Positions 2,242 through 28,930 of a stretch of 64,000 nucleotides of DNA are shown here, one piece after another. Below the pieces are notes generated by a model. That model saw only the letters and a program-made list of their open reading frames with translations. It was not told the DNA's origin and ran no database searches. The stretch lies in assembly GCA_902558885.1 (NCBI GenBank), contig CACEFQ010000007.1:1-64000 (forward strand), written 5' to 3'. Position 1 is the stretch's first letter. Each line of letters begins with the position of its first letter. The stretch comes from an uncultured SAR116 cluster alpha proteobacterium (lineage in GTDB: Bacteria > Pseudomonadota > Alphaproteobacteria > Puniceispirillales > Marisalimonadaceae). The position numbers and the translations under genes are program-made.

Positions 2242-2257
2242 TGGCATATTTGTTGCA
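2242..2257 (+). promoter_or_regulatory. Sigma-54 promoter for the TPR-glycosyltransferase gene
   Basis: TGGCA, 6 bp, TTGCA matches the -24/-12 consensus with the exact GG-to-GC spacing. It lies 33 bp upstream of the ATG at 2291, so transcription would begin near 2268. This ties the downstream modification genes to the sigma-54 flagellar programme. Confidence 0.85.
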
Positions 2258-2290
2258 AATAATTTGATGTTAATAAATTAGGTTATTTAA

Positions 2291-5200
2291 ATGTTTACAA
2301 AATTATCTGTAGATCAAATGCTTTTGAAGGCCAAGTCATTTGAAAAAAAGGGTAAATTTTTGGAAGCTAAGGAGTTATATCAAACCGTATTAAAGAACTT
2401 TTCCAAAAATAAGAGAGCACATTATGGTCTAATGGCCTTAAACCAGATTAAACAAAACTATAATATACAAAGTTTACCTCTAGAAGAGGGTTATAAATTA
2501 GAAAGTTTTTACAACCAAGGTCAGTTTTCATTAGCCTTTAAAAATGCTAATTCACTTATAAAACGATACCCAAAATCATTTCTGGCTTGGAATATTCTCA
2601 GTATCTCTGCAGTACAAATAGGTAATCTCGAAGCAGCTATAAAGGCATTTGAAAAAGTAATTTCTATTAATCCAAGATATGCTGAAGCTTATAATAATCT
2701 TGGAGTTATTCTAAAAAATCAAGGTAAGTTAAAAGAAGCATTTGATCTATTCGAAAGAGCATTACAAGTCAAACCAGAATATATTGATGCTTACTACAAC
2801 TTGGGTAATGTTCTAAAAGAACAAGGTAAGTTGGATGAATCAATAGAGGCTTTTAAAAAGGCAATCTCACTCAAACCTGACTATGCTGAAGCCTATTGTA
2901 ATTTGGGTGTGGTTTTTAAAGATCAGGGTAAGTTTAATGAGGCGATAAGTGCATATAAGAAATCTATAACTTTTAAATCTAATAATGCTCTTTCTTACTC
3001 TAATATAGGTAGCCTTCTCCAAAATCAAGGTAAACTCGATGAAGCAACGGAGGCATATAAAAAATCTATATCAATTGATCCTAATTTAGCTAATGCACAT
3101 AAAAACTTAAGTTTTACACTTCTTAGTTGTGGTCAATATAAACAAGGTCTTGACGAATATGAATGGCGCTGGAAAACTGACGAAAGTTTATCAAAATATA
3201 GACATTTTCGTCAGCCTTTGTGGAATAAAGAAATAAGCTTGAAGGGTAAAACAATTCTTATTTGGTCCGAGCAAGGCGTTGGTGACACCATAACTTGGTC
3301 TTCTTGTCTATCGCATATAACTTCTCAAGCTAAACACTGTATTTTAGAGTGTCAGGAGAAATTAGTACCATTGTTAAAACGTTCTTTTCCAAAAATTGAG
3401 GTAAAAGCAGAAAATAGAAGTTTGGATGAAGAAAGAAATGACTTTGATTTTCATATTTCTATGGGAAGCCTCTATAAAAACCTCAATAAAGAAATTTTCC
3501 TTAAGACCAAAGTTGACGCTTATCTTGTACCAGATCCGGACAGGGTTGATTATTGGAGGAAGAAACTAGAGTCCCTTGGAAATGGTCCATATATTGGTGT
3601 TAGTTGGAAAAGTGTCCTGATGTCACCAGATCGTATACCTAACTACGCTCCAATATCTGAGTGGTCTTCTTTGCTTAAACTTCCAAATATAAAGTTTATT
3701 AATTTACAGCCTAAAGATTTTGAAGAAGATTTGAGTAAAATCAAGAATGAAATGGGTGTAAAAGTACATAATTTTGAAGATATAGATCATTGGGACGATC
3801 TAGATGATGTGGCTGCGCTTTGTACTGCTCTTGACATGGTTGTATCAAATAAAATTACAGTTCCTTTAATTGCTGCAGGAGTAGGAACCTTAACTAAACT
3901 TGCTAATTGGAAACAAAGTGCGTGGAATAATATTTTATTAAATCCTAGAGGCCCTTTGGTGCAAATATATGAAAAGGACACTTGGGAAAATTGGGATAAT
4001 GTATTTAAATTAATTGCAGATGATATTTTGAAATTAAATAGTTTTAATTACACTAAAAATAATATTACTACCCAAAATAAAAATTCAGAACTAATTGTTG
4101 CTGATGATATTGTAAAATTAAAGGATATAAAAAATTCAAAAGATATTAGTTGTATCCAAAACCCACCTTCAGAAGTAATTAGTGAACTATTAAGTTTGTA
4201 TAATAATGGACAATTTTTTACTGTTGTTGAAAAAGCCCAACTTATCATTGAACAATATCCAAAAGGAATTGACATTTGGAATATATTGGCAGTATCTGCA
4301 TACAAAACTCAAATGATGGATAAAGCAATTAAGGCATATGAAGAAGTAATTTTATTAAAACCTGATTTTCCTGCTGCCTATAATAATATGGCAGTTGCAC
4401 TTTTAGATATAGGTAAGATAGATAAAGCCATAGAGGTTTGTAATAAAGCAATATCATTAAAGCCAAACTATGTAGAGGCTTACAAGAACCTTGGAAATGC
4501 TTATAAAAATCAAGGAAAATTCTTCAATTCTATTGAGGCTTATGAAAAAGCAATCTCACTAAAACCAGATTATGCTGAGCTTTTTAATAACCTAGGAAAT
4601 GCTTATCAAGATCAAGGTAAGCTAGATGATTCAATAAAAGCTTATGAAAAAGCAATTTCACTAAAACCAGATTATGCTGAAGCTTATAACAATCTTGGGA
4701 ATACTTTAATTAATCAAGGAAAGTTGGAAGAGGCTCAAAAAAAATTCAAAAAGACACTTTTATTTGAGCCCAATCATATCTCAGCACATAATAATTTGGG
4801 TTTTGTTCTTGCCAACCAAGGCATGTTAGATGAGGCTATTAAGTTTTATAAGAAGGCAATTACCCTAAATCCTGATTATGTTGATGCATATATTAACTTA
4901 GGTAAAGCTCTTAGAGATTTAGGCGAGCCTCATGAGGCTATTGATGCATTCGAAAAAGCAATTTTAATTAAACCTAATTATGCTCATGCATATAATAATT
5001 TAGGCACTATTTTTAATGATCAGGGTAATTTTGTTGAGGCCATTAATTCATTTGAGAAGGCAATATTAATTAATCCTAATTTTGCTTTAGCATTCAATAA
5101 TATGGGTGTTGCTTTAAAAGATCTAGGAAAAATGAATGAAGCCATTGATGCGTTCAAAAAAGCACTTTCCCTCGAATTTGAAGATAGTACAACTCATAAA

Positions 5201-6154
5201 AATCTAAGTTATGCACTTCTCAATAGTGGAGAATTACAAGAAGGCCTAAATGAATATGAATGGCGCTGGAAAACACAAAAATTTTTACAACAAAAAAGAA
5301 ATTTCTTACAACCAATGTGGGATGGAAAAGAGAGCCTAAGTAATAAGACTCTACTTCTTTGGTGTGAACAAGGTATTGGAGATACAATATCATGGTCATC
5401 TAGCTTGTCACTAATGGCATCTAAGGCAAAGTATTGTATTCTAGAATGTCAGGAAAAACTCCTACCTTTACTAAAGCGTTCTTTTCCAAATATTGATGTA
5501 AAAGCTGAAGATAGAAGTTTGGATACCAAAAGAAATGATTTTGATTTTCATCTGCCTATGGGAAGTATTTATAAAAATTTTGTTAAGGAGATTTCTAGAT
5601 TTGACAAATCAAACGCTTATCTCATTCCTGATCCAGTAAGAGTTGATCATTGGAAGAGAAGACTAAAGTCTTTGGGAAATGGTCCTTATATTGGTGTTAG
5701 TTGGAAGAGTTCTAATTTGGCTCCTGAGCGTTTACCACATTATGCCAACATATCAGACTTTTCAGCAGTACTTAAAATTCCAAACACAACTTTTATTAAT
5801 CTTCAATATAATGATTTTGAAGATGATTTGAAAAAAATTACAGATGAACTTGGTATAAAAGTACATAACTTTGATGATTTAGATCATTATAACGATATTG
5901 ATGATGTGGCCGCACTATGTTTGGCACTTGATATGGTTGTTTCGACTAAAATAACAGTTCCATTTATTTCAGCAGCTGTTGGCACTTCAACCAAACTAGC
6001 CAATTGGAAACAAAGTCCATGGAATAATGTTTTATCAAATCTCAAAGGTCCAAAAATTGATATTTTTGATCGAAATACTTGGGAACCGTGGGATGATGTA
6101 TTTAGCTCTATTGCTGAAGATATATTGAATTATTCAAATAAAAGGAATAGTTAA
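2291..6154 (+). CDS. Double-headed TPR / glycosyltransferase-like protein
   Basis: This 1287-residue protein is a tandem duplication of a TPR array plus a GT-B-like domain. The first half has TPR helices (about residues 8-288), then a domain starting at YEWRWKT (residue ~290) with W-EQGVGDTITWSS and GPYIGVSWKS. The second half repeats this: TPRs ~625-985, then YEWRWKT at ~989, EQGIGDTISWSS and GPYIGVSWKS again. Such C-terminal domains are typical of TPR-containing putative glycosyltransferases. No catalytic residue can be assigned by eye. There is no signal peptide, so it is probably cytoplasmic. A sigma-54 promoter precedes it, its stop overlaps the next start (TAATG), and flagellins flank it. 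Flagellin O-glycosylation is the inferred role. Confidence 0.82.
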   Translation: MFTKLSVDQMLLKAKSFEKKGKFLEAKELYQTVLKNFSKNKRAHYGLMALNQIKQNYNIQSLPLEEGYKLESFYNQGQFSLAFKNANSLIKRYPKSFLAWNILSISAVQIGNLEAAIKAFEKVISINPRYAEAYNNLGVILKNQGKLKEAFDLFERALQVKPEYIDAYYNLGNVLKEQGKLDESIEAFKKAISLKPDYAEAYCNLGVVFKDQGKFNEAISAYKKSITFKSNNALSYSNIGSLLQNQGKLDEATEAYKKSISIDPNLANAHKNLSFTLLSCGQYKQGLDEYEWRWKTDESLSKYRHFRQPLWNKEISLKGKTILIWSEQGVGDTITWSSCLSHITSQAKHCILECQEKLVPLLKRSFPKIEVKAENRSLDEERNDFDFHISMGSLYKNLNKEIFLKTKVDAYLVPDPDRVDYWRKKLESLGNGPYIGVSWKSVLMSPDRIPNYAPISEWSSLLKLPNIKFINLQPKDFEEDLSKIKNEMGVKVHNFEDIDHWDDLDDVAALCTALDMVVSNKITVPLIAAGVGTLTKLANWKQSAWNNILLNPRGPLVQIYEKDTWENWDNVFKLIADDILKLNSFNYTKNNITTQNKNSELIVADDIVKLKDIKNSKDISCIQNPPSEVISELLSLYNNGQFFTVVEKAQLIIEQYPKGIDIWNILAVSAYKTQMMDKAIKAYEEVILLKPDFPAAYNNMAVALLDIGKIDKAIEVCNKAISLKPNYVEAYKNLGNAYKNQGKFFNSIEAYEKAISLKPDYAELFNNLGNAYQDQGKLDDSIKAYEKAISLKPDYAEAYNNLGNTLINQGKLEEAQKKFKKTLLFEPNHISAHNNLGFVLANQGMLDEAIKFYKKAITLNPDYVDAYINLGKALRDLGEPHEAIDAFEKAILIKPNYAHAYNNLGTIFNDQGNFVEAINSFEKAILINPNFALAFNNMGVALKDLGKMNEAIDAFKKALSLEFEDSTTHKNLSYALLNSGELQEGLNEYEWRWKTQKFLQQKRNFLQPMWDGKESLSNKTLLLWCEQGIGDTISWSSSLSLMASKAKYCILECQEKLLPLLKRSFPNIDVKAEDRSLDTKRNDFDFHLPMGSIYKNFVKEISRFDKSNAYLIPDPVRVDHWKRRLKSLGNGPYIGVSWKSSNLAPERLPHYANISDFSAVLKIPNTTFINLQYNDFEDDLKKITDELGIKVHNFDDLDHYNDIDDVAALCLALDMVVSTKITVPFISAAVGTSTKLANWKQSPWNNVLSNLKGPKIDIFDRNTWEPWDDVFSSIAEDILNYSNKRNS
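4538..4683 (+). repeat. 102-bp tandem TPR-unit repeat
   Basis: Two nearly identical stretches, 4538-4581 and 4640-4683, are offset by exactly 102 bp (34 codons, one TPR unit). Both encode AYEKAISLKPDYAE. The near-identity at DNA level suggests recent unit duplication within the TPR array. Confidence 0.85.
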
Positions 6155-6903
6155 TGGAAAATATTGCCGTGATACCAGTAAGGGCAGGTAGTAAACGTTT
6201 ACCACAAAAAAATTATAAGTCTTTTAACTCTAGAACCTTAGCTGAAATTGCAAGAGATAAGTGTTTGGCTGCAGGTATTTTTGATAAAGTAATAATCAGT
6301 AGCGATGATAAGTATTTTGAACAGCTTGTAAACTCAAATCAAGTTGAATTTATAAAAAGAACAGAACAATTAGCTGGTGATAATGCAACAACGGATATGG
6401 TAATAGACTTTTTCTTCGAAGAGCTTCCTTCTTGCAAATCTATTCTTTGGGTCAACAGTGTAAGCCCTTTGCAATCAATAGAAGATATAAAAAACTGCGG
6501 AATGCGTTTGCATGATTCCAATGTTGATTGTGTTATGGCAGTTAACACCTTATATCAACATTGTTCTCTTTCAAATAAACCTATCAATTTTAACCCCAAT
6601 AACTCATTTGAAAAAACACAAGATTTAGAACCTATCCAAAGATATATATATAGTTGTATGGGATGGAAAAGGGATACTTATGTTGAACATAGAAGTAGAG
6701 GTTTTAAGGGATTGTTTCCAGGTAATATGGCACTTGTTGAGACAAGCGCGCTCGCAGGAATGTTAATTAAGTATGAAGAAGATTTTATTCTTTGTTCAAA
6801 AATTGAAGAGGCGTTTTTAGACATAAATAACAATAAATCTAGACTGCAGTCAAAAAAAGAAGAAAAGTCAGATTTTAAGGAGCTATACACAAATGTTATA
6901 TAA
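6154..6903 (+). CDS. CMP-sugar (acylneuraminate-type) cytidylyltransferase
   Basis: The 249-residue protein opens with IPVRAGSKRLPQKN (residues 7-20), the CTP-binding signature of acylneuraminate cytidylyltransferases (NeuA/PseF/LegF class). It continues with VIISSDD and LWVNSVSPLQS, matching the usual S-D-D and L-x-P-L-Q blocks, with Asn at the usual Gln/Asp position. It would activate a nonulosonic acid as the CMP-sugar for transfer. Its ATG overlaps the stop of the TPR-glycosyltransferase gene by one base, so the two are translationally coupled. Which sugar it uses (pseudaminic, legionaminic or other) cannot be told, because no nonulosonate biosynthesis genes are in the window. Confidence 0.85.
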   Translation: MENIAVIPVRAGSKRLPQKNYKSFNSRTLAEIARDKCLAAGIFDKVIISSDDKYFEQLVNSNQVEFIKRTEQLAGDNATTDMVIDFFFEELPSCKSILWVNSVSPLQSIEDIKNCGMRLHDSNVDCVMAVNTLYQHCSLSNKPINFNPNNSFEKTQDLEPIQRYIYSCMGWKRDTYVEHRSRGFKGLFPGNMALVETSALAGMLIKYEEDFILCSKIEEAFLDINNNKSRLQSKKEEKSDFKELYTNVI

Positions 6904-6933
6904 AATTGACCGCGTTATTAGGATAAACACATT

Positions 6934-7686
6934 ATGCTTGACTATGATCTAACTGCGGTAATACCTGCGCGCTTGGGATCAAGTAGAATATCTGAAAAAG
7001 TTTTTCAAACTATTGATGGTAAAGATACTTTACTCAGTCGTAAAATTAAACAATTAAGAAAAATTCTACCGCGTGAAAAAGTTATTGTAAATACTGAATC
7101 GAATTTAATAGCTGAGCATGCACTCTCTAATGGCGCAAATATTCATTGGCGTGATCCTTATTTTTCAAAAGAACACGATGCTTCTTTTTCTGATTTGATA
7201 GTTCATGTAATATCTCAAATAAAGAGCGAACATATTGCTTGGACACCATTCGTAGTTCCATTTTTTGACAGTAATCAATTTCGATTGGCTTTCAATAATT
7301 ATACTAAAATGGTTATAAATGGAAATTATGATAGTTTACTGAGTGTTGTCCCGATTAAAGAATATATTTGGAATGAGAAGCAACCATTAAACTATGTTGC
7401 TGATCATCGACATACAATAAGCCAAGATCTTCCTAACTGGTTTCAAGTTACAAATGGTAATTATATGGCGCCAAAGAAAATTATGTCTAAATATAAGTAT
7501 ATTTTGGGGAAAAAAGTCTTTTTGGATACTAGGGAGCATTTTTGCAAGATTGATATTGATACTCTTCATGATTTGAAAATTGCAAGGGCATATCACAATT
7601 TAGAATTAGTTGCAGATAATTCGAGCACATTAAAAGCTATTGTTTCAAAAACTACATCTTTTAAAGAAACAGTTGTCAAAACATAA
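6934..7686 (+). CDS. Second cytidylyltransferase-like protein
   Basis: This 250-residue protein begins AVIPARLGSSRISEKVFQ, the nucleotide-binding motif of the SpsF/KdsB/NeuA-type cytidylyltransferase superfamily. The later motif VIVNTESNLIAEHALSNGA resembles the nucleotide-discriminating loop. It differs clearly from the neighbour at 6154: the start motif is ARLGSSR rather than VRAGSKR, and the block expected to read L-P-x-x-P is WTPFVVPFF. It is the third gene of the modification operon. It may act on a different sugar or be a non-catalytic paralogue. An AGGA lies about 10 bp before the ATG. Confidence 0.72.
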   Translation: MLDYDLTAVIPARLGSSRISEKVFQTIDGKDTLLSRKIKQLRKILPREKVIVNTESNLIAEHALSNGANIHWRDPYFSKEHDASFSDLIVHVISQIKSEHIAWTPFVVPFFDSNQFRLAFNNYTKMVINGNYDSLLSVVPIKEYIWNEKQPLNYVADHRHTISQDLPNWFQVTNGNYMAPKKIMSKYKYILGKKVFLDTREHFCKIDIDTLHDLKIARAYHNLELVADNSSTLKAIVSKTTSFKETVVKT

Positions 7687-7802
7687 CTAAATAATTTTAT
7701 TACAATATTATTGATTTAAGCAGCACATAAATGCTGTCATTAATCATAAATAATCCATAAAATCTTACTAATTTTTGTAAAATTATCTAAATTTAATAAA
7801 AG

Positions 7803-7827
7803 AAAAAACCACCAAAAAGGTGGTTTT
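7803..7827 (-). terminator. Terminator of the minus-strand flagellin gene (bidirectional)
   Basis: A 9-bp stem AAAACCACC / GGTGGTTTT has a 5-base loop. Read on the minus strand it ends in a run of six U just after the flagellin stop codon. On the plus strand it is followed by a weaker TTTTCTCT, so it may also end the 2291-7686 operon. Confidence 0.88.
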
Positions 7828-7866
7828 CTCTGGATAACAAGGGATTAATATTAATATATTATTTTA

Positions 7867-10386
7867 TTACTGTTGTAATAATTGGAGGACATTTTGTTGA
7901 GCTTTACCTGCTTGTGCGATCATTGCCATTGCAGATTGCTGTAATATTTGAGCTCTAGTTAACCTTGCTGACTCTTTTGCAAAATCAGCGTCTTCGATTC
8001 TACCCCTCGAAGCATTTGTATTTAAAGCCACATTTGATAGGTTATCTATTGCCTTTTCCATTCTACTCATTAAAGCACCTAATTTAGCTCTTTCTTTATG
8101 AATTCTGTCAAGTGATCTATCTAAAACACGTAATGCATCTATAGATGACTGTCTTGTTTTAACGTTAACACCAGATAATTTGTCTAAAGAAGCAGCACCA
8201 GGGGATGCTTCGAAAAGACCTTTTCCGTCTTCACCAATAACTGTGAAACTGTTACTTGAGGACATTTCAAGTTGTCCAGTAATAATCACAGAATCTGCAG
8301 CCTTTAATCCAATTTTAATTGCTCCAGTTGTTGCCCCAGAATTAACTACTGTATTAATTGTTTTAAATATTCGTCTTCCAGTTACGGTCTTATTAGCTTC
8401 TGGTCCAGTTATAACCTCAACTAGAGTATTTCCAGACATGTCTGTACCAGTTACTGTAAAGGTTTTGTCGCTCTCATCACTTGCAGAGCTTGTGATAGTT
8501 ATAAGAGCACTTTGGTTAGCTATGGTGTTTAAAACACCCACACTAACAGTGGCATCTCCATCAACTGCAGACGGTATTACAGATGTAACAGTACCAAATA
8601 CGTTAGTTGTTTGTTGGGTCGCTCCACCTGTAAATGCAGGTACAGTTTCTTGAAGTGAATTTCCATAAACATCTGTACCAGTCACTAAAAAAGTTCCATC
8701 TGTGGCTGCATTTGACGTGATTGTTACAATAGAATTATGAACTGTTGCTGTGTTAACCACAGGCATAATAGCTTCTAAAGTACCTACTTTAATATTAGCA
8801 TCTGCATCAACCGCAGACGGTATTACAGATGTAACGGTTGCAAATCTGTTAGTTGTTTGTTTGGTTGTTCCACTTCCAAATGCAGTTATAGTTTCTTCAA
8901 GCGCATTTCCAAAAAGATCAGTACCAACCACTTTAAAAGACCCATCTGTGGCAGCAGATGCAGTGATTGTTACAAAAGAATTATGTACTGCTGATGCATT
9001 AACCATAGTCAAGCTTTGTGTACCCGAAAATCCTGAAGTAATACCTTGAGAAGTAACAATTCTATCATCATCAGCGGCGGCAATTGTCTGAGATGCAACA
9101 ATAGAAGTGGCATTTGTTGCTGTGCTAACTGGACCAGCTGCTGGGAAAGCTGTTGGGTTTGTGGTTCCAATTCTACCACCAATTGTTAATTGATTTGTAG
9201 GTGTTCCAGTATAGATGCCATCATCATCAGTTGTCGTTACATTTGTATCCCCAAGTGATACAGCATCGCCAGCGACTACTTCATCATTATCTAAACTCGT
9301 TATTAATAATGTTCTTCTAGATCCTGTTGTTGTTGTATCTCCACCAAAATTTACGTCACCTAACTTAATATCGTAACCTTCATTTTGAACCATTATAATT
9401 GATGATTTGTCTGTTGATAGGGTGGCAGTTACACCTGTAGTAGTAGTATAGTTATTTATAGAATCTCTAAGATCAGATAATACTGAACCTGATTCATTAT
9501 TATTTAATGTAACATTTGCAGCGATTGTAATAGCTGTAGTGTTTTTGCCTTGAATACTGAATGAAACACTTGTTTGTCCATTGTAGGCTTTGTCTAAAGT
9601 TTTTGCCTGTAGTTTGAGTTGTGTAGAGGCTATAGCTGTAACTCCAGTAGCATCAAAAACAGCATTAACAGAAGTAGCTATATCTCTAACATTTGATCCT
9701 GCTGCAGCTGTAACAGAAGAACTACCTAAAATTCCATGTAAAGTAAATGACTCTGCTTGTACCAAATTAGCTTCAGAAGTGTCTGCTACTGCGTACGCAT
9801 TTAATGCTAAATTATCATTATCAACTGCGCTATTTGCTATGTCTGTTGTTTCTGTTCCTTGGGATTTTGCTTTATATGCCCCTAAGCTATCTAGTCTCAT
9901 AGAAGATATAGAAAGCTGTGCAAATTCTCTCTCATGTGTTCCAATTTGAAAACGTCTATCTGCAAAAGATCCATCTAAAACTGCAATTTCATTGAAAGTA
10001 GTATCTCTAGTTACACGATCTAATTCTGCTAACATCTGAACAACCTCAGCATCTAAATAAGAACGTTCTTCGGAGTTCATAACATCAGATGCTGATTGTA
10101 TCGCTAATTCCCTTATTCTCTGGATAATTGATGATGATTCGTCTAATGCGCCTTCAGTCACTTGTGCCATTGAAATAACATCAGCTGCATTTCGTACTGA
10201 TTGTTCTAGTCCTTTTATTTGTGCAGTCATTCTATCAGCAATTGCTGCGCCAGCTGCGTCGTCACCTGCGTGATTTATGCGCTTGCCAGATGACAGACGC
10301 TCCATAGCCGTTGTCATATCACGCTCTGTCGCAGTCATTTTATTTAGTGCAAACTGAGCTGCAGTATTAGAATTTACTGTTGGCAT
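7867..10386 (-). CDS. Very large flagellin with internal repeats
   Basis: The 839-residue protein has both conserved ends of flagellin. The N-terminus (MPTVNSNTAAQFALNKM, ERLSSGKRINHAGDDAAG) and C-terminus (RIEDADFAKESARLTRAQI, ending VLQLLQQ) are intact. The central surface region of about 550 residues is unusually long and Thr/Val-rich. It carries a tandem 82-residue repeat (VHNS-VTIT-ATDG-GTD-GN-ET, VTSVIPSAVD) and a third degenerate copy. The start at 10386 is preferred over an in-frame ATG at 10419: GGAG lies 8 bases before 10386, and the sigma-54 -12 element at 10420 puts the transcript start downstream of 10419. FliS (10885) is the likely export chaperone. Confidence 0.95.
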   Translation of the reverse strand: MPTVNSNTAAQFALNKMTATERDMTTAMERLSSGKRINHAGDDAAGAAIADRMTAQIKGLEQSVRNAADVISMAQVTEGALDESSSIIQRIRELAIQSASDVMNSEERSYLDAEVVQMLAELDRVTRDTTFNEIAVLDGSFADRRFQIGTHEREFAQLSISSMRLDSLGAYKAKSQGTETTDIANSAVDNDNLALNAYAVADTSEANLVQAESFTLHGILGSSSVTAAAGSNVRDIATSVNAVFDATGVTAIASTQLKLQAKTLDKAYNGQTSVSFSIQGKNTTAITIAANVTLNNNESGSVLSDLRDSINNYTTTTGVTATLSTDKSSIIMVQNEGYDIKLGDVNFGGDTTTTGSRRTLLITSLDNDEVVAGDAVSLGDTNVTTTDDDGIYTGTPTNQLTIGGRIGTTNPTAFPAAGPVSTATNATSIVASQTIAAADDDRIVTSQGITSGFSGTQSLTMVNASAVHNSFVTITASAATDGSFKVVGTDLFGNALEETITAFGSGTTKQTTNRFATVTSVIPSAVDADANIKVGTLEAIMPVVNTATVHNSIVTITSNAATDGTFLVTGTDVYGNSLQETVPAFTGGATQQTTNVFGTVTSVIPSAVDGDATVSVGVLNTIANQSALITITSSASDESDKTFTVTGTDMSGNTLVEVITGPEANKTVTGRRIFKTINTVVNSGATTGAIKIGLKAADSVIITGQLEMSSSNSFTVIGEDGKGLFEASPGAASLDKLSGVNVKTRQSSIDALRVLDRSLDRIHKERAKLGALMSRMEKAIDNLSNVALNTNASRGRIEDADFAKESARLTRAQILQQSAMAMIAQAGKAQQNVLQLLQQ
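8526..9017 (-). repeat. Tandem 246-bp (82-codon) repeat in flagellin variable domain
   Basis: Two copies, about 8526-8771 and 8772-9017, are offset by exactly 246 bp. For example, the same 23-base stretch occurs at 8567-8589 and 8813-8835. At protein level both copies read VTSVIPSAVD near their ends. Boundaries are approximate. Confidence 0.85.
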
Positions 10387-10419
10387 ATCAATCTCCAAAT
10401 TAATTTCGTAGGAAAACAC

Positions 10420-10435
10420 TGCAATTGCTATGCCA
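10420..10435 (-). promoter_or_regulatory. Sigma-54 promoter of the large flagellin gene
   Basis: On the minus strand the sequence is TGGCA, TAGCAA, TTGCA, a full -24/-12 match with correct spacing. It lies 34 bp upstream of the start codon at 10386 and overlaps the longer alternative ORF start, which helps decide the real start. Confidence 0.88.
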
Positions 10436-10454
10436 AAAATTCAGCTATTTTTAT

Positions 10455-10811
10455 CTATGCGTATTTTTCTATTGATTTTTTTAATTCAGTAATATTTTTT
10501 GGAATAACACTTATCATATTATAACGAGTAATTATCTCATTATAAAAATATGATGGTGATAATGAGGCTCTTGATCTTATAAAGCTTTCTGTAAGTGATC
10601 CATTACTAGCTGTTTGGTTGTTTACGTATACGTGTCTGATATAATTAGGAGGTGCATTATTTAAAGGTCTCTTTGTTACTCCAATTTCAGGGACTATCCT
10701 ATTATTAGTTGGCATACTGTTTGCAGATAGACTAGCGCTTTCATACCTTAATGGTTTAGAGGCATAAATCTCATTTATAGCATATGGGTTTTGCGAATTA
10801 TTAACAATCAT
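10455..10811 (-). CDS. Hypothetical protein upstream of the flagellin gene
   Basis: The 118-residue product is not recognised. It is polar and Asn/Ser-rich in the first half (MIVNNSQNPYAINEIYASK), with an isolated hydrophobic stretch late and no clear signal peptide or membrane span. No good ribosome-binding site precedes the ATG. It lies between the flagellin promoter and the divergent fliS gene, so a flagellar link is possible by position only. It could also be a spurious ORF, although its length and lack of a better gene on the opposite strand favour a real gene. Confidence 0.5.
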   Translation of the reverse strand: MIVNNSQNPYAINEIYASKPLRYESASLSANSMPTNNRIVPEIGVTKRPLNNAPPNYIRHVYVNNQTASNGSLTESFIRSRASLSPSYFYNEIITRYNMISVIPKNITELKKSIEKYA

Positions 10812-10884
10812 GGTGTAAATTAAACATAAAATTTATGAAAAATCAAATTTTTGACACTTTATTATAAATAGTTGAATTCTAATT

Positions 10885-11322
10885 ATGACAAATAACCAAT
10901 ATATTGACGCATACAAAAAGACACAACAATCATCCAATGCAGTTACTTCATCACACGAAATAGTAAGAACTTTAATGAAAGAATTAGTTAATTCAATGCA
11001 AAAAATTGTTTTGGATATTCAAGACGAGAAGAAAAGAAAACAAGATCAGCACTTAGTTGATAAAGTTTTTGAAGAAAAAAATGCTCGTCATAGATCAAAA
11101 AATTTAAGCAAGGCATTATCTATTATTTATGGCCTTCAAACTAGTCTAGATTTTGATAAGGCACTAGAGATTGCAAATAATCTTTTTCAATTATATGAGT
11201 ACTGTCGTCACGAAATCATTAGAGGGTTTAGTCAAAAAATTGAAGATGGGATTGTTAGAGCTATTGATGTCATAAAACAAATAATGGAAGGGTGGGAAGA
11301 AATACCATCTTTAGATAAATAA
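10885..11322 (+). CDS. fliS: Flagellar secretion chaperone FliS
   Basis: The 145-residue protein matches FliS. The N-terminus has YKKTQ, an all-helical body follows with LSKALSIIYGLQTSLDF and NNLFQLYEYCRHEII, and it ends with a helix reading VIKQIMEGWEEI. FliS binds the C-terminal core of flagellin in the cytoplasm and delivers it to the export gate. It lies two bases upstream of a FliT-like gene, the usual fliS-fliT pairing. FliS is common in gammaproteobacteria and rarer in alphaproteobacteria, which often use FlaF/FlbT instead. The N-terminal segment is slightly longer than average. Confidence 0.88.
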   Translation: MTNNQYIDAYKKTQQSSNAVTSSHEIVRTLMKELVNSMQKIVLDIQDEKKRKQDQHLVDKVFEEKNARHRSKNLSKALSIIYGLQTSLDFDKALEIANNLFQLYEYCRHEIIRGFSQKIEDGIVRAIDVIKQIMEGWEEIPSLDK

Positions 11323-11324
11323 AG

Positions 11325-11621
11325 ATGGATACTCTTAATTCAGACTTAGATTTATTAGAAAATCTTTCAAAAAAAATTTCAGATTTAATTTATAATAATG
11401 AATTCACTCAAATATCACTTCTTGATGCGCAAAGAAAGTTATTAATAGAAAAAATTAAAGAGAGTCAGATTAAGAAAAATAATATTCAGAAAAGAATAGG
11501 GAAGATTCTAGAAAATAATTTAGAAAATATAAAAGCCACAGAAAAAAAATTACAAAACCTATCAAAAAATCATAGTAAATTTAATAAAAGATTAAAAGCA
11601 TATTCTATGAACCAGTTGTAA
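11325..11621 (+). CDS. FliT-like coiled-coil protein
   Basis: This 98-residue, Lys/Glu/Asn-rich, all-helical protein starts two bases after fliS. Its size, helix content and position fit FliT, the export chaperone for the filament cap FliD. FliT proteins are poorly conserved, so the call rests mainly on synteny. The stop codon overlaps the first base pairs of the following terminator stem. Confidence 0.6.
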   Translation: MDTLNSDLDLLENLSKKISDLIYNNEFTQISLLDAQRKLLIEKIKESQIKKNNIQKRIGKILENNLENIKATEKKLQNLSKNHSKFNKRLKAYSMNQL

Positions 11622-11644
11622 AATTCGAAAGAATTTTATTTTTT
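11620..11644 (+). terminator. Terminator after fliS-fliT
   Basis: A 7-bp stem AAAATTC / GAATTTT closes a GAAA tetraloop and is followed by ATTTTTT. The stem is AT-rich and weak, but the geometry is that of an intrinsic terminator and it sits exactly at the end of the operon. Confidence 0.6.
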
Positions 11645-11654
11645 AAAAAAAAAT

Positions 11655-11681
11655 TAAACAAATTTTATTTTCAGTCGTAAT
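11655..11681 (+). promoter_or_regulatory. Candidate sigma-28 (FliA-type) promoter
   Basis: TAAA, 15 bp, GTCGTAAT resembles the TAAA-N15-GCCGATAA class 3 flagellar promoter. It lies 37 bp before the flagellin start at 11719. No GG/GC sigma-54 pair is present in this gap. The -10 match is imperfect, so this is tentative. Confidence 0.4.
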
Positions 11682-11718
11682 TACTGCTGTAATATTAATA
11701 TAATTCGTGGAGGAATTT

Positions 11719-13710
11719 ATGCTTAATATCGGTAATTTAACTGCTTCTCAATTTATTCAAAAAAACATGTCTCAACAAATAAAAGAAATAACAGAGAGTA
11801 CGGAAAGACTATCCTCTGGTAAGAGGATTAATAAGGCATCAGATGATCCTTCTTCCACAGGACCGATTTCAAGATTAAATGCACAAATTCTATCCTTGGA
11901 AGAGGCAATATCAAATGGGGCAGAAGGAAAAATACTTACCCAAACTGCTGACAATGGTCTAAGCTCGATTAATAATTTACTTGCTAGAATAAGAGAACTC
12001 ACTGTTAAAGGCAGTAGTACGACACTTACAACTGCAGATAGAAATACCTTGCAAGTTGAAATAGATGCATATTTATCAGAAATAGATTCATTAACTAACT
12101 TAATTAAATTTAATTCTATAAAATTATTAGACGGCTCAAAAGAAAATGTAAGTTTTTTAGTTGGCATAAACAAAGATGATGCTATTTCAATTAACTTAGT
12201 TAAATCTAATAGCACAGCATTAGGGTTGTCGGGAGCTTCAGGTGTTAAAGAATTTACAAGTGGGAGGGTAACCAGTTTTAACTATAGTTCAAATTTAGCA
12301 GCCAGTGATATAAAGATAAATAGTCAAAATGCACTTGCAGCAACTTTAACATCTAATTTGACATCTGGCAATAACACGGCAACTGCATTAGTAACAGCTA
12401 TAAATGCTAATACTAATACTCATGGCGCAACTGCAACAGGTTTTAATAAACTCACTTCGGCAGCTAAAAGTTCTTTGAGTATGAGCAATACTTTTACAAT
12501 TAATACTAATGTAATTTCAGTTCAAACAAGTTTAGAAAATTTAGTTACTGAAATTAATCAAGAAGCAGGTGGGGTTACAGCTACGTTAAACTCAGATAAC
12601 ACAATAACTTTATCAAATACGACTGGAAACGACATTGTAATTGGAGGAAATGCTCCAACTGATGCAGGTTTCTCTGCTGGGACCTACTTAGGTTACATTA
12701 AATTAGAGAATGTTGATGGAACATTTGTTAAAATTGAGGCTATGACAAAAGCAAATGGATATGCATCAAATAGCGGAAATATTGATGACTTGGCAAGATT
12801 TGGTTTTAATGAGGTAGACTCTAGCGTTGCTATTAGATCAGATTTAGTTTCAACTAATGCACTAACAACATCTCAAGATATAAAAATTAATGATATTGAT
12901 ATAGGTGCATCCGATAGTTCCTCTGCTGCCGCAAAGGCAATTGCAATTAATGCTGTATCATCTTCAACAAATGTAACTGCTTCAGGTGACAATTTAGTAA
13001 CGTTAGATTTAAATTTTTCAGAAGCATCTGCAGCAGCATCAAATATCAGTATAAATGGAAATACTATAAATTTTTCAAGTGTTACCAATGAAACTGAAAC
13101 AATTACAGCAATTAATAATGCCTCAATAGGGGATATTATTGCTTCTGCTAATTCTAGTGGGGAAGTTCAATTAGCTAGTGCTAGTGGAGCAGATATTGTT
13201 ATAAATCATGGAGGAACTCCTGGTGTATTTTTTGATGGTCACACTGATGCTACCGGAGCTACTATTTCAGTAGGAAGTTCAGTAACTTTTAAAGGACAAA
13301 TAATTTTAACACATACAGCAGGTGATGTTGTAAAAATATCTGGAGATGATGTTTCTGAACTCGGATTTCAGGCGCAGGCCTCAAGTAGTTCCTCAACACC
13401 TGGATCAATTATATCTGTGTCGTCTTCCTCAAATGCTTCATCAGCATTAAGTACTGTTGACAATGCCATTGATACTATTGCTAATACAAGAGCAAAATTT
13501 GGTGCAAGTGAAAATGCAATTGATAGTAGATTAAATTTTTTACTTGATGCTAAAACAAATTCTATATCAAGGTTATCCAAAATAGAAGATGCAGACTTTG
13601 CTCTTGAAACAGCAAAACTTACAAAAGCTCAAATTATGTCAAAGGCAGCATCTTCAATGCTTGCACAAGCTAATGCAGGTGGTGAAGTTTTGTTAAGATT
13701 ATTAAATTAA
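11719..13710 (+). CDS. Large flagellin / flagellin-like protein
   Basis: The 663-residue protein has a flagellin N-terminus (LNIGNLTASQF, TERLSSGKRINKASDDPSST) and C-terminus (RLSKIEDADFALETAKLTKA, ending EVLLRLLN). The centre has flagellin IN-type repeats (TFTINTNVISV; NISINGNTINF). A long block from about residue 210 aligns by eye with the visible part of the flagellin at 1-2094, including the shared LNSDNTITLSNTTG, so these two are paralogues. The start at 11719 is chosen because GGAGG lies 5 bases upstream; an in-frame GTG at 11707 would overlap that site. The first domain also resembles FlgL, but the C-terminus favours flagellin. Confidence 0.92.
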   Translation: MLNIGNLTASQFIQKNMSQQIKEITESTERLSSGKRINKASDDPSSTGPISRLNAQILSLEEAISNGAEGKILTQTADNGLSSINNLLARIRELTVKGSSTTLTTADRNTLQVEIDAYLSEIDSLTNLIKFNSIKLLDGSKENVSFLVGINKDDAISINLVKSNSTALGLSGASGVKEFTSGRVTSFNYSSNLAASDIKINSQNALAATLTSNLTSGNNTATALVTAINANTNTHGATATGFNKLTSAAKSSLSMSNTFTINTNVISVQTSLENLVTEINQEAGGVTATLNSDNTITLSNTTGNDIVIGGNAPTDAGFSAGTYLGYIKLENVDGTFVKIEAMTKANGYASNSGNIDDLARFGFNEVDSSVAIRSDLVSTNALTTSQDIKINDIDIGASDSSSAAAKAIAINAVSSSTNVTASGDNLVTLDLNFSEASAAASNISINGNTINFSSVTNETETITAINNASIGDIIASANSSGEVQLASASGADIVINHGGTPGVFFDGHTDATGATISVGSSVTFKGQIILTHTAGDVVKISGDDVSELGFQAQASSSSSTPGSIISVSSSSNASSALSTVDNAIDTIANTRAKFGASENAIDSRLNFLLDAKTNSISRLSKIEDADFALETAKLTKAQIMSKAASSMLAQANAGGEVLLRLLN

Positions 13711-13726
13711 TGGTATGTTTTTTGCT
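13711..13726 (+). promoter_or_regulatory. Sigma-54-like promoter for the TPR-SGNH gene
   Basis: TGGTA, 6 bp, TTGCT keeps the GG and GC elements at exact -24/-12 spacing, with T for C at the third conserved position. The predicted transcript start near 13738 precedes the GTG at 13762. It begins directly after the flagellin stop codon. Confidence 0.6.
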
Positions 13727-13754
13727 CACTATAGGTATAAAAGTTTATAGTGAG
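13725..13754 (+). repeat. Perfect 9-bp inverted repeat in promoter/leader
   Basis: CTCACTATA and TATAGTGAG are separated by 12 bases. The left arm overlaps the -12 element and the right arm reaches the GTGAG just before the GTG start of the TPR-SGNH gene. No T tract follows on either strand, so it is not a standard terminator. It could be an operator or an RBS-masking hairpin. Confidence 0.75.
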
Positions 13755-13761
13755 ATAAATT

Positions 13762-14988
13762 GTGACAAGTGATTATAACTTTCAACAAGACTTCAATTTA
13801 GAGTTAAAAAAAAACAATTTTAAAACAATTGGTGACATTAATAAATATACAAGTATAGCCCAACAATATTACAACAATAACAATATTAATAAATGTATTG
13901 AGTATTTACTTATAGCTCTAAATTTGGATCCACAAAATAGCATCACTTTATCTAAATTGGGATATGCTTATTACAAATTAGGCCGGTTGCCAATTGCAAT
14001 TGATTATTTCAAGCACTCATTAAAAAATAATATAGATAATTACGACGCTCTTAATTTTTGGGCTTTAGCACTATTACAACAAGGAAAATGGTTTAGTTTA
14101 AATGAAAGTGAATATCTTAATAAAAACTTAAATAAATTATCATTTAAATTTCATGGTTTCTTTTATATCAGTATGATTATTAATAATATCCTTTTAAATA
14201 GAAATCAGTTAAACACATTAATCTTCAAAGATATCGTAAAAGAGTATGATGGAGATTTCAAAACTTCTTTTCGAACTTTACCAAAATTTGCACAAGTTTG
14301 GCTATTATTTTTAAATAAATTAAACAATCAAATTCTAAAAACTAAAAATATTGATAAAATAACAAAATTTGAAACAATCTATCATATTGGTGACAGTCAT
14401 TGTTTATCTTTTGTAAATCAAAAAATAAAATTAAATAATAAAATTTACAAAATTTTACCGAAGTTGATTAGTGGAGCAAAAGCTTGGCATTTTGCTAATA
14501 ATGAAATTAATTTATCAAAAAAATTATTTATAAATCATATAAAGAATATTGAAGTTGGTTCTAAAGTTTTCTTATCTTTTGGTGAAATTGACTGTCGTCC
14601 GGATGAAGGCATTATAATTGCATATTCGAAGACTGACCTATCAAAGAAAAATTTAATTGAAATAATCCAAAAAACTACAAAAAATTATATAGAATTTTGT
14701 TGTGAACAATTTAAAGCTAGAAATGTTACTCCATATATTTTAGGAGTTCAGGCACCAATTATTAAGAAAGAAGATAAAAAAAAGGCTGATCTCTTAAAAA
14801 AAATAATAAAAAAATTTAATCTCTATTTGAAAAACATCTGTCATGAAAAGGGGTTAAATTTTATAGATACTTTTCAACATACCAGAAATAATAATTTCAT
14901 TTCAAATAAAAAATATATGTTAGACAATTGTCATTTAAACTTTAAGTTTATAAAAGTTATTGAGAAAATTTACTGTAAAAGCTCATAA
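13762..14988 (+). CDS. TPR protein with SGNH-hydrolase-like domain
   Basis: The 408-residue protein has two or three N-terminal TPR-like units (about residues 25-115) and a C-terminal SGNH/GDSL-like fold. Visible blocks are GDSH (210-213), which supplies the nucleophile Ser, FGEIDCR (GEID 274-277) at the block III position, and DNCH (388-391), which supplies the catalytic Asp-x-x-His pair. SGNH enzymes cleave or transfer acyl esters; a GEID-type variant is less well understood. There is no signal peptide, so it should act in the cytoplasm. The location between a flagellin gene and a TPR-methyltransferase suggests acylation or deacylation of a flagellin glycan. The start is GTG. Confidence 0.72.
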   Translation: MTSDYNFQQDFNLELKKNNFKTIGDINKYTSIAQQYYNNNNINKCIEYLLIALNLDPQNSITLSKLGYAYYKLGRLPIAIDYFKHSLKNNIDNYDALNFWALALLQQGKWFSLNESEYLNKNLNKLSFKFHGFFYISMIINNILLNRNQLNTLIFKDIVKEYDGDFKTSFRTLPKFAQVWLLFLNKLNNQILKTKNIDKITKFETIYHIGDSHCLSFVNQKIKLNNKIYKILPKLISGAKAWHFANNEINLSKKLFINHIKNIEVGSKVFLSFGEIDCRPDEGIIIAYSKTDLSKKNLIEIIQKTTKNYIEFCCEQFKARNVTPYILGVQAPIIKKEDKKKADLLKKIIKKFNLYLKNICHEKGLNFIDTFQHTRNNNFISNKKYMLDNCHLNFKFIKVIEKIYCKSS

Positions 14989-14992
14989 AGTT

Positions 14993-17020
14993 TTAAATTT
15001 TCTGAATCCACAATCGATACATTGATTTAAAAATATCTTTGTGAGAATTTTCAACCTCATGCCATTTATCCAAATCCAGGATATTTTTATCACTTTTAAA
15101 AATATTATAAAATGTATTGTATAAAAAGTTTTTTTTCAAAATATAATTTTCATCAAAACCAAGAAAGGATAAATTCAACTTTTTTAAACATGATTTTATT
15201 TGTGGTAGTGTAAATTGATGTTCTTTACAATGAAAAATTAAGTCTCTCAATTCACTCATGTTGAAAAAGTCTCGAAACCCAAAAAAACTTTCAAAATTAG
15301 GATCAGATTTTATCATTTTGTTTCTAAATTCGCGGATCTCTACGTTAAAATCTTTAATATCTTGTGATGAATATTTATCTTGATAGGGTTTGATATTACG
15401 CCTTGCTATTTTACTGTACAAACAAATTTTCATTAATCCATTTTTATTTAGTACTTCAGTTAATTTTTGCCACCCTTGCATAGGATTATCTAGGTGGTGT
15501 AAGACACCACTACAAACAATTATATCAAACTTGGTATTTAATTCTTTTACATTAAGAAGATCACATTGGTAAAAATTAATATTTTCTATTTTATATTCTT
15601 TGGATTTACGTATAGCATAAGATAGACTAGTTTTGCTTAAATCTATAGCAGTGATATTTAAATTTTCTATATAAGAAGATAAGTTTATAGGTTCTTGGCC
15701 AGTACCACAACCTGCAACTAAAATTTCTAACTTTTGATTATTAGTTGTTTTGTTTTCAATAAAGTTAATTTTTTTAAGACTTAAATACTCTTTCATACTA
15801 ATTTTATTTGGAAATATAGGTATTTTATCCCATTTGGGATAAGGATTTTCTTCATATTGTGATTTTACTTGACTGGAAATATGATTTTCTATTTGGTTCA
15901 ATGAAACAATATTTTTTTTGTATTTTTCTTCAATAAATGGAAATGTTATAAATTTTTCCTTCAATTTTAAAAAATCAAAAGGAAAATTTATTTTATTTAT
16001 CCATTTGTACTTTTTTAAATCACGATAACTTCCTAAAAGAAGCAAATTCACGAAGTTTGTATTTGAATTTTCTTCTGTTAGCTTATCAAGTTCATTTTCT
16101 AAATCATTAATTAAAAAAGTTTCATTTTCATTTTCATATATTATATATTCACTCATATAATTTTGTATTGCAATAGATTGTATCAGTTTACTGATTTCTA
16201 TTTTAGGTTCTATTTTTTTCCGATGAATTAATAAATACTCTCTTAACTTTTGAATAAATTGTTCAAATTTTAAATTAGTAATAACAAAACTTTCCATACA
16301 CATATGGTATAATTTTATATTTGAAAATTTGATTAACATGTTTATAAAATTTTGATTTAATTCATTTTTTTTAAGAATGTGATCTTTAATTTTTTTAAAA
16401 AGAGGACTAAGCATAAGTAAATTAAATGCATTTTTGTGAATAAATCTCATTTCTGTGTCTGAAAAATATAGCTTATCAGATAATGCTAGTTCGTATGATT
16501 CAACCCATAAATCACTATATTCTTCAGAGCCATATTGTAATAATAGATTATTTAAATTGGTGAATAAATCTTTACTATTAGTATTTAAAGAAAATGCTCT
16601 TTTAAAACATTTTAGGGCTGATATTATATCTTTTCTATCTTTATAGATTTTTCCAAGATTGCAAAAAGCATATGAATTTTTATTGTCTAAAATTAGTGCT
16701 TTTTGGAATTTTTTTTCAGCTTCTTGTTTTTGATTATTGTTATATAATATTGCACCAATGGCGTTATACAGATTTGAGTTATCTTTATCTTTTTTTAATT
16801 CCTCTTCAGCTAAATTTATTGCTTCAGAAGATTTACCATTTAACATTAATTGATTTATGATTAGTAGTTTATCTCTTGATGAAGAATTTCTAGACTTAAA
16901 GTCTGAAGAAATTGTATTATTGTAATTTTTTAACCCATCATAATTGAAATTTGAATTTAAAGAAATACCATTTTTAATGAATGGTTCGGGTTTAGAAAAA
17001 TTTTTCTTAAAGTGTTCCAT
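14993..17020 (-). CDS. TPR protein with SAM-dependent methyltransferase domain
   Basis: The 675-residue protein has TPR units near residues 45-160, a long helical middle, then YEENPYPKW (~390), a hallmark of TPR-fused methyltransferases. A class I methyltransferase core follows: ILVAGCGTGQEP (~430, SAM-binding motif I), AIDLSKTSL (motif II) and FDIIVCSGVLHHLDNP (motif IV). The target is not identifiable; flagellin lysine or flagellin-glycan methylation is inferred from context. It converges with the TPR-SGNH gene (4-bp gap) and lies downstream of fleQ with its own sigma-54-like promoter. An AGGA lies 6 bases before the ATG. Confidence 0.85.
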   Translation of the reverse strand: MEHFKKNFSKPEPFIKNGISLNSNFNYDGLKNYNNTISSDFKSRNSSSRDKLLIINQLMLNGKSSEAINLAEEELKKDKDNSNLYNAIGAILYNNNQKQEAEKKFQKALILDNKNSYAFCNLGKIYKDRKDIISALKCFKRAFSLNTNSKDLFTNLNNLLLQYGSEEYSDLWVESYELALSDKLYFSDTEMRFIHKNAFNLLMLSPLFKKIKDHILKKNELNQNFINMLIKFSNIKLYHMCMESFVITNLKFEQFIQKLREYLLIHRKKIEPKIEISKLIQSIAIQNYMSEYIIYENENETFLINDLENELDKLTEENSNTNFVNLLLLGSYRDLKKYKWINKINFPFDFLKLKEKFITFPFIEEKYKKNIVSLNQIENHISSQVKSQYEENPYPKWDKIPIFPNKISMKEYLSLKKINFIENKTTNNQKLEILVAGCGTGQEPINLSSYIENLNITAIDLSKTSLSYAIRKSKEYKIENINFYQCDLLNVKELNTKFDIIVCSGVLHHLDNPMQGWQKLTEVLNKNGLMKICLYSKIARRNIKPYQDKYSSQDIKDFNVEIREFRNKMIKSDPNFESFFGFRDFFNMSELRDLIFHCKEHQFTLPQIKSCLKKLNLSFLGFDENYILKKNFLYNTFYNIFKSDKNILDLDKWHEVENSHKDIFKSMYRLWIQKI

Positions 17021-17042
17021 TAATATTCCTTTTTTTTAAATC

Positions 17043-17058
17043 AGCAAAATTTATGCCG
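17043..17058 (-). promoter_or_regulatory. Sigma-54-like promoter of the TPR-methyltransferase
   Basis: On the minus strand CGGCA, TAAATT, TTGCT keeps the GG and GC elements with correct spacing; the first base is C rather than T. It sits 23 bp before the start codon, giving a very short leader that still includes the AGGA ribosome-binding site. Confidence 0.65.
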
Positions 17059-18343: not shown

Positions 18344-18359
18344 TGGCAAGCTTCTTGCT
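18344..18359 (+). promoter_or_regulatory. Sigma-54 promoter of the fleT-fliEFGHIJ operon
   Basis: TGGCA, AGCTTC, TTGCT is a strong -24/-12 match. It lies 32 bp upstream of the ATG at 18392 and downstream of two FleQ-box-like sites. Confidence 0.92.
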
Positions 18360-25501: not shown

Positions 25502-25517
25502 TGGCACTGTATTTGCA
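25502..25517 (+). promoter_or_regulatory. Sigma-54 promoter of fliK
   Basis: TGGCA, CTGTAT, TTGCA is a strong -24/-12 match. It lies between fliJ and fliK and splits the long flagellar run into separately controllable units. A transcript start near 25528 favours the fliK ATG at 25544. Confidence 0.9.
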
Positions 25518-25543
25518 GTTAATCTTGAAATATGGAATTTAAA

Positions 25544-28914: not shown

Positions 28915-28930
28915 TGGCATATTTCTTGCT
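28915..28930 (+). promoter_or_regulatory. Sigma-54 promoter of fliOPQR-flhB
   Basis: TGGCA, TATTTC, TTGCT is a strong -24/-12 match 31 bp before the fliO ATG. A half-site-like TTGAC lies about 50 bp upstream. Confidence 0.9.

Follow-up and report, generated by a model that had tools for sequence, protein, structure and literature searches.

TPR-fused enzymes interspersed with flagellins in a SAR116 alphaproteobacterium: a candidate Maf-independent flagellin modification locus

A flagellin island from an uncultured SAR116 cluster alpha proteobacterium encodes a double TPR-glycosyltransferase, two CMP-sugar synthetases, a TPR-SGNH protein and a TPR-methyltransferase, interspersed with three flagellins. 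We consider it reasonably probable that the island is an FlmG-type, Maf-independent flagellin modification locus, in which docking has been extended past glycosyl transfer to further flagellin or glycan chemistries. A shared TPR front end probably lets unrelated enzymes of SAR116 flagellin loci act on the filament protein. The new part is the TPR enzymes other than the FlmG-like glycosyltransferase; the aiming of a glycosyltransferase at flagellin by TPRs is already known from FlmG.

Gene content and absence of Maf

SAR116 bacteria are abundant marine alphaproteobacteria. The window is the whole stretch analysed, 64,000 nt of contig CACEFQ010000007.1 (GCA_902558885.1), with the island at 2242-17058. 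The source MAG (completeness 76%) and 57 family relatives made up a comparison set of 58 genomes. The gene set claimed in the initial annotation (three TPR-bearing enzyme types, two CMP-sugar synthetase-like genes and three interleaved flagellins) was borne out by Pfam, by motifs and fold for the SGNH protein, and by fold for the glycosyltransferase domain. The features are:

1..2094, forward: flagellin 1 (Flagellin_C 1.5e-26; frame open from base 1)
2242..2256, forward: sigma-54-type -24/-12 site TGGCATATTTGTTGC, 5' of the TPR-glycosyltransferase gene; fits consensus
2291..6154, forward: tandem double TPR-glycosyltransferase, FlmG-like architecture (1287 aa; Pfam TPRs; GT9-like GT-B fold)
6154..6903, forward: NeuA1, CMP-nonulosonate/CMP-Kdo synthetase-like (CTP_transf_3 4.3e-17; NeuA structures)
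6934..7686, forward: NeuA2, second CMP-sugar synthetase-like gene (CTP_transf_3 3.4e-10)
7867..10386, reverse: flagellin 2 (Flagellin_N 1.1e-37; 839 aa from ATG)
10421..10435, reverse: sigma-54-type site TGGCATAGCAATTGC, 5' of flagellin 2
10455..10811, reverse: small protein of unassigned family, kept beside FliS and flagellin in SAR116
10885..11322, forward: FliS flagellin chaperone (PF02561 1.5e-18)
11325..11621, forward: short coiled protein, kept 3' of FliS (matches FliT weakly)
11719..13710, forward: flagellin 3 (Flagellin_N 6.8e-25; 663 aa counted from likely ATG)
13711..13725, forward: sigma-54-type site TGGTATGTTTTTTGC, 5' of the TPR-SGNH gene; fits consensus
13762..14988, forward: TPR-SGNH protein (408 aa; GDSH with S212, GEIDCR, invariant D388/H391)
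14993..17020, reverse: TPR-class I SAM methyltransferase (675 aa; Methyltransf_31 8.3e-17; QYEENPYPKW and GCGTGQ motifs)
17044..17058, reverse: weak sigma-54-like site CGGCATAAATTTTGC, 5' of the TPR-methyltransferase gene; -24 T off-consensus
17073..18203, reverse: sigma-54 activator with AAA+ and Fis-type HTH (Sigma54_activat 9.9e-69)
18344..18358, forward: sigma-54-type site TGGCAAGCTTCTTGC, 5' of the second activator
18392..19588, forward: FlbD-like sigma-54 activator (best NCBIfam match FlbD, under its cut-off)

Flagellin 1 has lost its 5' end at the contig start. Its central part is rich in Ser and Thr (23%), as is the centre of flagellin 2 (26.5%).

The initial annotation had seen no Maf-type gene and had named a Maf gene elsewhere as evidence against its proposal; PF01973 was found in 0 of the 58 genomes, neither in the MAG (76% complete) nor in its 57 relatives. 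Maf glycosyltransferases thus differ by family from the glycosyltransferase of the window, with which they presumably share the job of cytoplasmic nonulosonate transfer onto flagellin. This absence is expected and poses no puzzle, because Caulobacter crescentus, also without Maf, has the Maf-independent flagellin O-glycosyltransferase FlmG (CCNA_01524, 596 aa), in which an N-terminal TPR domain (1-313) binds flagellin and is followed by a C-terminal GT-B domain; in two-hybrid tests this TPR domain was by itself sufficient for the binding of three flagellins (PMC7591256).

Folds and motifs of the TPR-fused enzymes

The protein at 2291-6154 has 13 TPR_1 stretches (Pfam) and consists of two tandem TPR-glycosyltransferase units, which are 55% identical over 509 aa, with glycosyltransferase domains 64% identical. 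The latter domain has no match in Pfam, and its model (pLDDT 89) resembles GT9/TibC GT-B enzymes (best TM 0.58-0.59), giving the FlmG-class order of N-terminal TPRs and C-terminal GT-B. The likeness to FlmG (PMC7591256) is one of architecture, and extends to the cytoplasmic setting and the presence of several flagellins; both genomes have a nonulosonate pathway and no Maf. Unlike FlmG, the enzyme of the window is a fusion of two units, and lies among flagellins together with TPR-fused enzymes that are not glycosyltransferases. The fusion of a TPR array with a protein glycosyltransferase also recalls GT41 O-GlcNAc transferase and SPINDLY, whereas the glycosyltransferase here is GT9-like and the window's genome has no GT41 match. 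TPR-GT41 enzymes themselves are common in SAR116 flagellin islands.

NeuA1 and NeuA2 both belong to CTP_transf_3 at family level, and neither is PseF at equivalog level (TIGR03584 of NCBIfam, 68.9 and 60.0 bits vs a cut-off of 205.7). NeuA1 adjoins the TPR-glycosyltransferase in nine SAR116 loci, and a CMP-sugar synthetase lies beside this glycosyltransferase in 11 loci, that of the window included in both counts. Together with two NeuB copies, these adjacent synthetases give a genome without Maf a nonulosonate donor route, and the 2291 enzyme may use such a donor.

The SGNH identity of the 13762 protein is based on motifs and on its predicted fold. Its AlphaFold model matches SGNH hydrolases, sialate O-acetylesterases among them, and G210, S212 and H213 of the G-D/E-S-H motif as well as D388 and H391 are invariant in the 10 aligned proteins. 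It thus has the fold, the Ser and the Asp-x-x-His residues in common with SGNH/GDSL hydrolases and, within these, with sialate O-acetylesterases (PDB 6xpg, 7pzh); it differs from them in the TPR fusion and in the block III Asn (GxND), in place of which GEIDCR is invariant. Additionally, Lipase_GDSL_2 of Pfam stays under its cut-off (0.0026; 18.7 bits vs 32.9), and the TPRs are weaker matches (TPR_2 1.3e-8, Pfam). From the fold, acyl editing by this protein is plausible.

The TPR-methyltransferase is a class I SAM enzyme by its Methyltransf_31 score (61.7 bits vs a cut-off of 27), and the GCGTG SAM motif is invariant across 23 aligned rows. A scan of the genome contigs with the full-length protein as query returned no relative. 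A phage origin was considered and rejected, the phage matches being three, weak and partial. FliB, a flagellin lysine methyltransferase with a [4Fe-4S]-mediated reaction (PMC8598068), has the role proposed here for the TPR-methyltransferase, which in contrast is of class I and carries TPRs. Searches of the freely accessible literature turned up nothing pertinent on TPR-fused flagellin methyltransferases, oxygenases or sulfotransferases.

Sigma-54 motifs and linkage to flagellins

The window has 40 occurrences of the motif TGG-N9-TGC (13.9 expected), and the FlbD-like activator gene opens a fli gene cluster. The initial annotation placed a sigma-54-type promoter before each TPR enzyme gene; the sites at 2242 and 13711 fit, but the one at 17058-17044 is off-consensus. 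Upstream sigma-54 motifs were found for 16/48 TPR enzymes beside flagellins (33%), 9/40 away from them (22%), 30/88 flagellins (34%) and 2/256 other genes (0.8%), an enrichment among TPR enzymes both beside flagellins and elsewhere (P-value = 1.6e-12 and 2.9e-7). In genome L035, dispersed TPR-fused methyltransferase, 2OG and glycosyltransferase genes carry such motifs. On motifs and enrichment, sigma-54 control of the TPR enzyme genes is predicted.

Linkage was defined as lying within 15 kb of a flagellin (less than 2% of total DNA; background at most 1.9%). In these counts, which are not independent because the genomes are incomplete and related, linkage was found for 10/24 TPR-methyltransferases, 7/10 TPR-SGNH proteins, 15/48 TPR-GT41 enzymes, and 5/7 TPR-fused 2OG-oxygenases vs 1/46 stand-alone ones (Fisher, 4e-5), and for none of 33 other class I methyltransferases or 45 NeuB genes. 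The remaining 14 of the 24 SAR116 TPR-methyltransferases and most TPR-glycosyltransferases lie away from flagellins, some flanked by housekeeping genes, and in 11 flagellated genomes all five of the classes searched for are missing. The TPR-sulfotransferase was weakened as a flagellin-linked class by its distribution (1/13 copies nearby). The flagellin-adjacent TPR-methyltransferases are not a single clade; TPR-methyltransferases entered flagellin loci more than once. The occurrence of TPR enzymes by flagellins in other genomes, which the initial annotation had offered as a check, is thus above background within SAR116 for TPR-methyltransferases, TPR-SGNH proteins, TPR-GT41 and TPR-fused 2OG enzymes; outside SAR116 the TPR-methyltransferase is seldom beside flagellins, with 3/60 loci near flagellin-like genes in a class-wide sample.

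One alternative, which we regard as unlikely, is that flagellin is modified by the TPR-glycosyltransferase and CMP-sugar synthetases alone, and that the TPR-methyltransferase and TPR-SGNH protein are hitch-hikers in a variable region with other targets (proteins or surface glycans). The position of most TPR-methyltransferases of this widespread family, away from flagellins outside SAR116 and in 14/24 copies within it, agrees with this, as does that of the similarly built TPR-sulfotransferases; however, the linkage of the TPR-SGNH and TPR-fused 2OG classes is well above background while stand-alone relatives are unlinked (2OG, 1/46), and dispersed copies, as in L035, have upstream sigma-54 motifs too. 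A further alternative, very improbable in our view, sees in the island a hot spot that takes up any fast-evolving surface-modification gene: LPS or capsule sugars would be the substrates of its TPR enzymes, and the flagellins mere neighbours. LPS heptosyltransferases are among the GT9 relatives, and NeuB genes lie elsewhere (0/45 near flagellins), as in capsule or LPS pathways, but among the fold matches of the glycosyltransferase there is also TibC, which glycosylates protein, the TPR arrays suggest a protein substrate, and the predicted sigma-54 control is that of the flagellins.

Shared TPR module and proposed docking

One N-terminal module is common to seven catalytic classes. Since dispersed as well as island copies carry it, it was ruled out as a marker of flagellin-linked copies. 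Co-variation of N-termini within an island was not supported either, the likeness within an island being no greater than between islands. These two observations, and the FliS gene in the island, would fit TPR arrays that are not flagellin docks and serve as a common SAR116 scaffold for oligomerisation or for another partner, e.g., FliS; we judge this rather improbable, given that the TPR domain of FlmG by itself binds flagellins (PMC7591256).

The shared TPR docking put forward in the initial annotation was already established for a glycosyltransferase by Caulobacter FlmG. A putative flagellin role of the TPR-methyltransferase and the TPR-SGNH protein is supported by where their genes lie, by sigma-54 motif enrichment and by the shared module; their binding and substrates are predictions. 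The model is favoured because the FlmG TPR domain binds flagellin in a Maf-free organism (PMC7591256), and because TPR-fused classes show linkage, sigma-54 motifs and a common N-terminal module. Upon the observed gene content, folds, promoter motif and linkage statistics, it builds a proposed docking, set of substrates and order of reactions. Flagellins and modification set would be co-expressed via sigma-54, and TPR arrays would bind flagellin in the cytoplasm before export, possibly with its chaperone, and so offer it to the catalytic domain with which they are fused. The double TPR-glycosyltransferase would attach a CMP-activated nonulosonate-type sugar supplied by the neighbouring synthetases, the TPR-methyltransferase would methylate flagellin or its attached sugar, and the TPR-SGNH protein would take off or move an acyl group on that sugar. 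Across SAR116, catalytic domains would be exchanged and the TPR front end retained. The model predicts unusual flagellin chemistry in SAR116. If the front end also aims methylation, deacylation and oxidation, TPR fusion would be a general bacterial means of targeting protein modification without a substrate sequence motif and a simple engineering handle, and the numerous orphan TPR-fused enzymes found in marine bacteria would become testable.

A wider reading, to which we give somewhat less than an even chance, is modular, combinatorial flagellin modification in SAR116, with one TPR module on at least six chemistries and cassettes swapped at the flagellin locus. The chemistries would be GT9-like and GT41 glycosyltransferases, two unrelated methyltransferases, SGNH and 2OG-Fe(II) oxygenase, and perhaps a sulfotransferase and an FAD enzyme. 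Cassette swaps would then alter the filament surface, e.g., against flagellotropic phages or grazers.

Alphaproteobacterial relatives of the TPR-glycosyltransferase were found at about 30% identity, and 13 other alphaproteobacterial genomes, outside SAR116, have TPR-SGNH relatives. Within a different alphaproteobacterial family, two genomes (L183 and L185) have a TPR-methyltransferase between two flagellin-like genes.

Flagellin island and its TPR enzymes

The window covers the opening 64 kb of a contig of 102.6 kb in a draft genome of 1.65 Mb (76% complete), whose family-mates are SAR116 alphaproteobacteria. The interleaving of three TPR enzymes with three flagellin genes, reported in the initial annotation, was confirmed by gene content. 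From base 1 the order is:

Flagellin 1 (cut)
2291-6154 (+), TPR-GT-TPR-GT protein (1287 aa; GT, glycosyltransferase)
6154-6903 (+), NeuA1, CMP-sugar synthetase-like
6934-7686 (+), NeuA2, CMP-sugar synthetase-like
Flagellin 2 (-)
Small conserved protein (-)
FliS
FliT-like short protein
Flagellin 3
13762-14988 (+), TPR-SGNH protein
14993-17020 (-), TPR-methyltransferase
Two sigma-54 activators, then fliE-fliF-fliG and onward (fli names past the second activator come from sequence reading, not family search)

Ser and Thr make up 23 to 26.5% of the centres of the three flagellins. Some flagellins in SAR116 islands (e.g., L239, L251 and L252) are very large, reaching about 1045 residues, and have long, variable central regions.

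Within the 2291 protein, one GT unit is 55% identical to the other over 509 aa, and every residue invariant among 27 relatives is retained in both. Pfam and NCBIfam gave no match for the GT domain, but its confident structural model (pLDDT 89) is similar to GT9 enzymes and to the protein glycosyltransferase TibC. The protein conforms to the plan of Caulobacter FlmG, in which an N-terminal TPR domain binds flagellins and is followed by a C-terminal GT-B domain, and which functions in a Maf-free genome (PMC7591256). That no Maf gene was visible in the window was borne out in the family (PF01973 absent from 58/58 genomes, six of them near complete). Because an FlmG-type GT works without Maf, this absence is expected and by itself is no sign of a new mechanism.

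The TPR-methyltransferase clearly belongs to the class I SAM enzymes. The TPR-SGNH model resembles SGNH hydrolases, including sialate O-acetylesterases; Ser212, Asp388 and His391 are present in all aligned relatives, and GEIDCR stands where GxND is usual.

A TPR-GT with a NeuA1-type synthetase was also found at unlinked SAR116 sites (L064, L065, L067, L068, L070, L073 and L074), as if the pair moved as a unit. Double TPR-GT41 proteins (L078:4453-8844, 1464 aa; L253:2790-7493, 1568 aa) parallel the double TPR-GT; the halves of the former are nearly identical, which could reflect either a recent duplication or a misassembly.

Linkage to flagellins and enzyme turnover

The 58 family genomes were searched for the enzyme domains and Flagellin_N, and a gene was counted as linked if it lay no more than 15 kb from one encoding Flagellin_N; such zones make up 1.9% of the DNA or less. 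Linkage was found for 10/24 TPR-methyltransferases, 7/10 TPR-SGNH proteins, 6/21 close TPR-GTs, 15/48 GT41 enzymes and only 1 of the 13 long TPR-sulfotransferases, while none of 33 other class I methyltransferases or 45 NeuB genes was linked. Binomial tails overstate significance because these counts include close relatives; a safer test is the contrast within PF13759 2OG-Fe(II) oxygenases (2OG), where 5/7 long TPR-fused copies are linked vs 1/46 short stand-alone ones (P-value = 4e-5, Fisher test). The sets vary among SAR116 flagellin islands, and some islands have no such enzymes. Enzyme sets of individual islands are:

L026, methyltransferase and two 2OG enzymes
L031, two methyltransferases and 2OG
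L037, GT41, 2OG, methyltransferase, GT41
L039, methyltransferase, SGNH, 2OG, GT41
L260:619-9409 (G006:C18), TPR-sulfotransferase, second unrelated TPR-methyltransferase and FAD-enzyme-like TPR protein (GGGVCG, FAD-type motif), in a row

In the methyltransferase-domain tree the flagellin-adjacent label takes four changes, and strong branch support makes at least two of these unavoidable; identity among the copies is about 40%. Methyltransferases were therefore most likely recruited to flagellin loci on more than one occasion.

Between the flagellins of another island (L238:8798-11646, G025:C8) lie a PAPS_reduct-family (cysD-like) gene and a CysN/APS-kinase fusion, and in L251 (G039:C12) two genes matching these in size occupy the same position. 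The L238 pair likely serves PAPS synthesis, which, if true, would permit flagellin sulfation.

Sigma-54 motifs, the shared N-terminus and proposed docking

The strict sigma-54 motif (TGGY-N7-TTGC, scored in gene start regions) precedes 30/88 flagellins vs 2/256 other genes, 16/48 TPR enzymes beside flagellins and 9/40 TPR enzymes elsewhere. Among the motif-bearing loci elsewhere, L075 and L076 fall within fli gene clusters whose flagellins lie outside the fetched stretch. Away from flagellins, L035:8359-15269 (G008:C11) holds a TPR-methyltransferase, a TPR-2OG oxygenase, a CMP-sugar synthetase and a TPR-GT, and the motif precedes all three TPR enzymes. These motifs suggest that dispersed TPR enzymes are likewise part of the flagellar regulon, whatever their position. 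In the window, other strong sigma-54-type sites precede a fliK-like gene (25502-25516; gene at 25532) and the gene at 28962 (28915-28929).

From 16 N-termini, drawn from several classes of enzyme, an HMM spanning about 100 residues was derived (consensus near PSQQQLNSLLEYYQNGRFxEAExLAxSMTxxFPxHPFGWKVLGA plus the next repeat). It matches seven catalytic classes, a pattern that shows catalytic domains exchanged behind one type of N-terminus. As a flagellin-specific mark this module was ruled out, being found equally in island and dispersed copies.

The proposal that TPR arrays are a shared docking module for flagellin-modifying enzymes is partly supported: its GT arm is established elsewhere (FlmG), and support for its methyltransferase and SGNH arms comes from linkage, regulation and domain exchange, with docking, substrates and products putative. 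The island is best filed as an FlmG-kind variant, in which TPR-directed flagellin modification is widened to several chemistries.

TPR-methyltransferases outside SAR116

In a sample of 385 alphaproteobacterial genomes, 68 encode the TPR-methyltransferase, which makes it fairly common. Only 3 of the 60 loci fetched lie near flagellin-like genes, two of which, from one family, are flanked by them; therefore, the TPR-methyltransferase family overall is not a flagellin methyltransferase family, and the flagellin link is a SAR116 trait with occasional parallels elsewhere. In the two flanked loci (L183:1256-9155, G322:C1; L185, G225:C1), from another alphaproteobacterial family, the enzyme stands between two flagellin-like genes, and L183 also has a sulfotransferase-like gene there.
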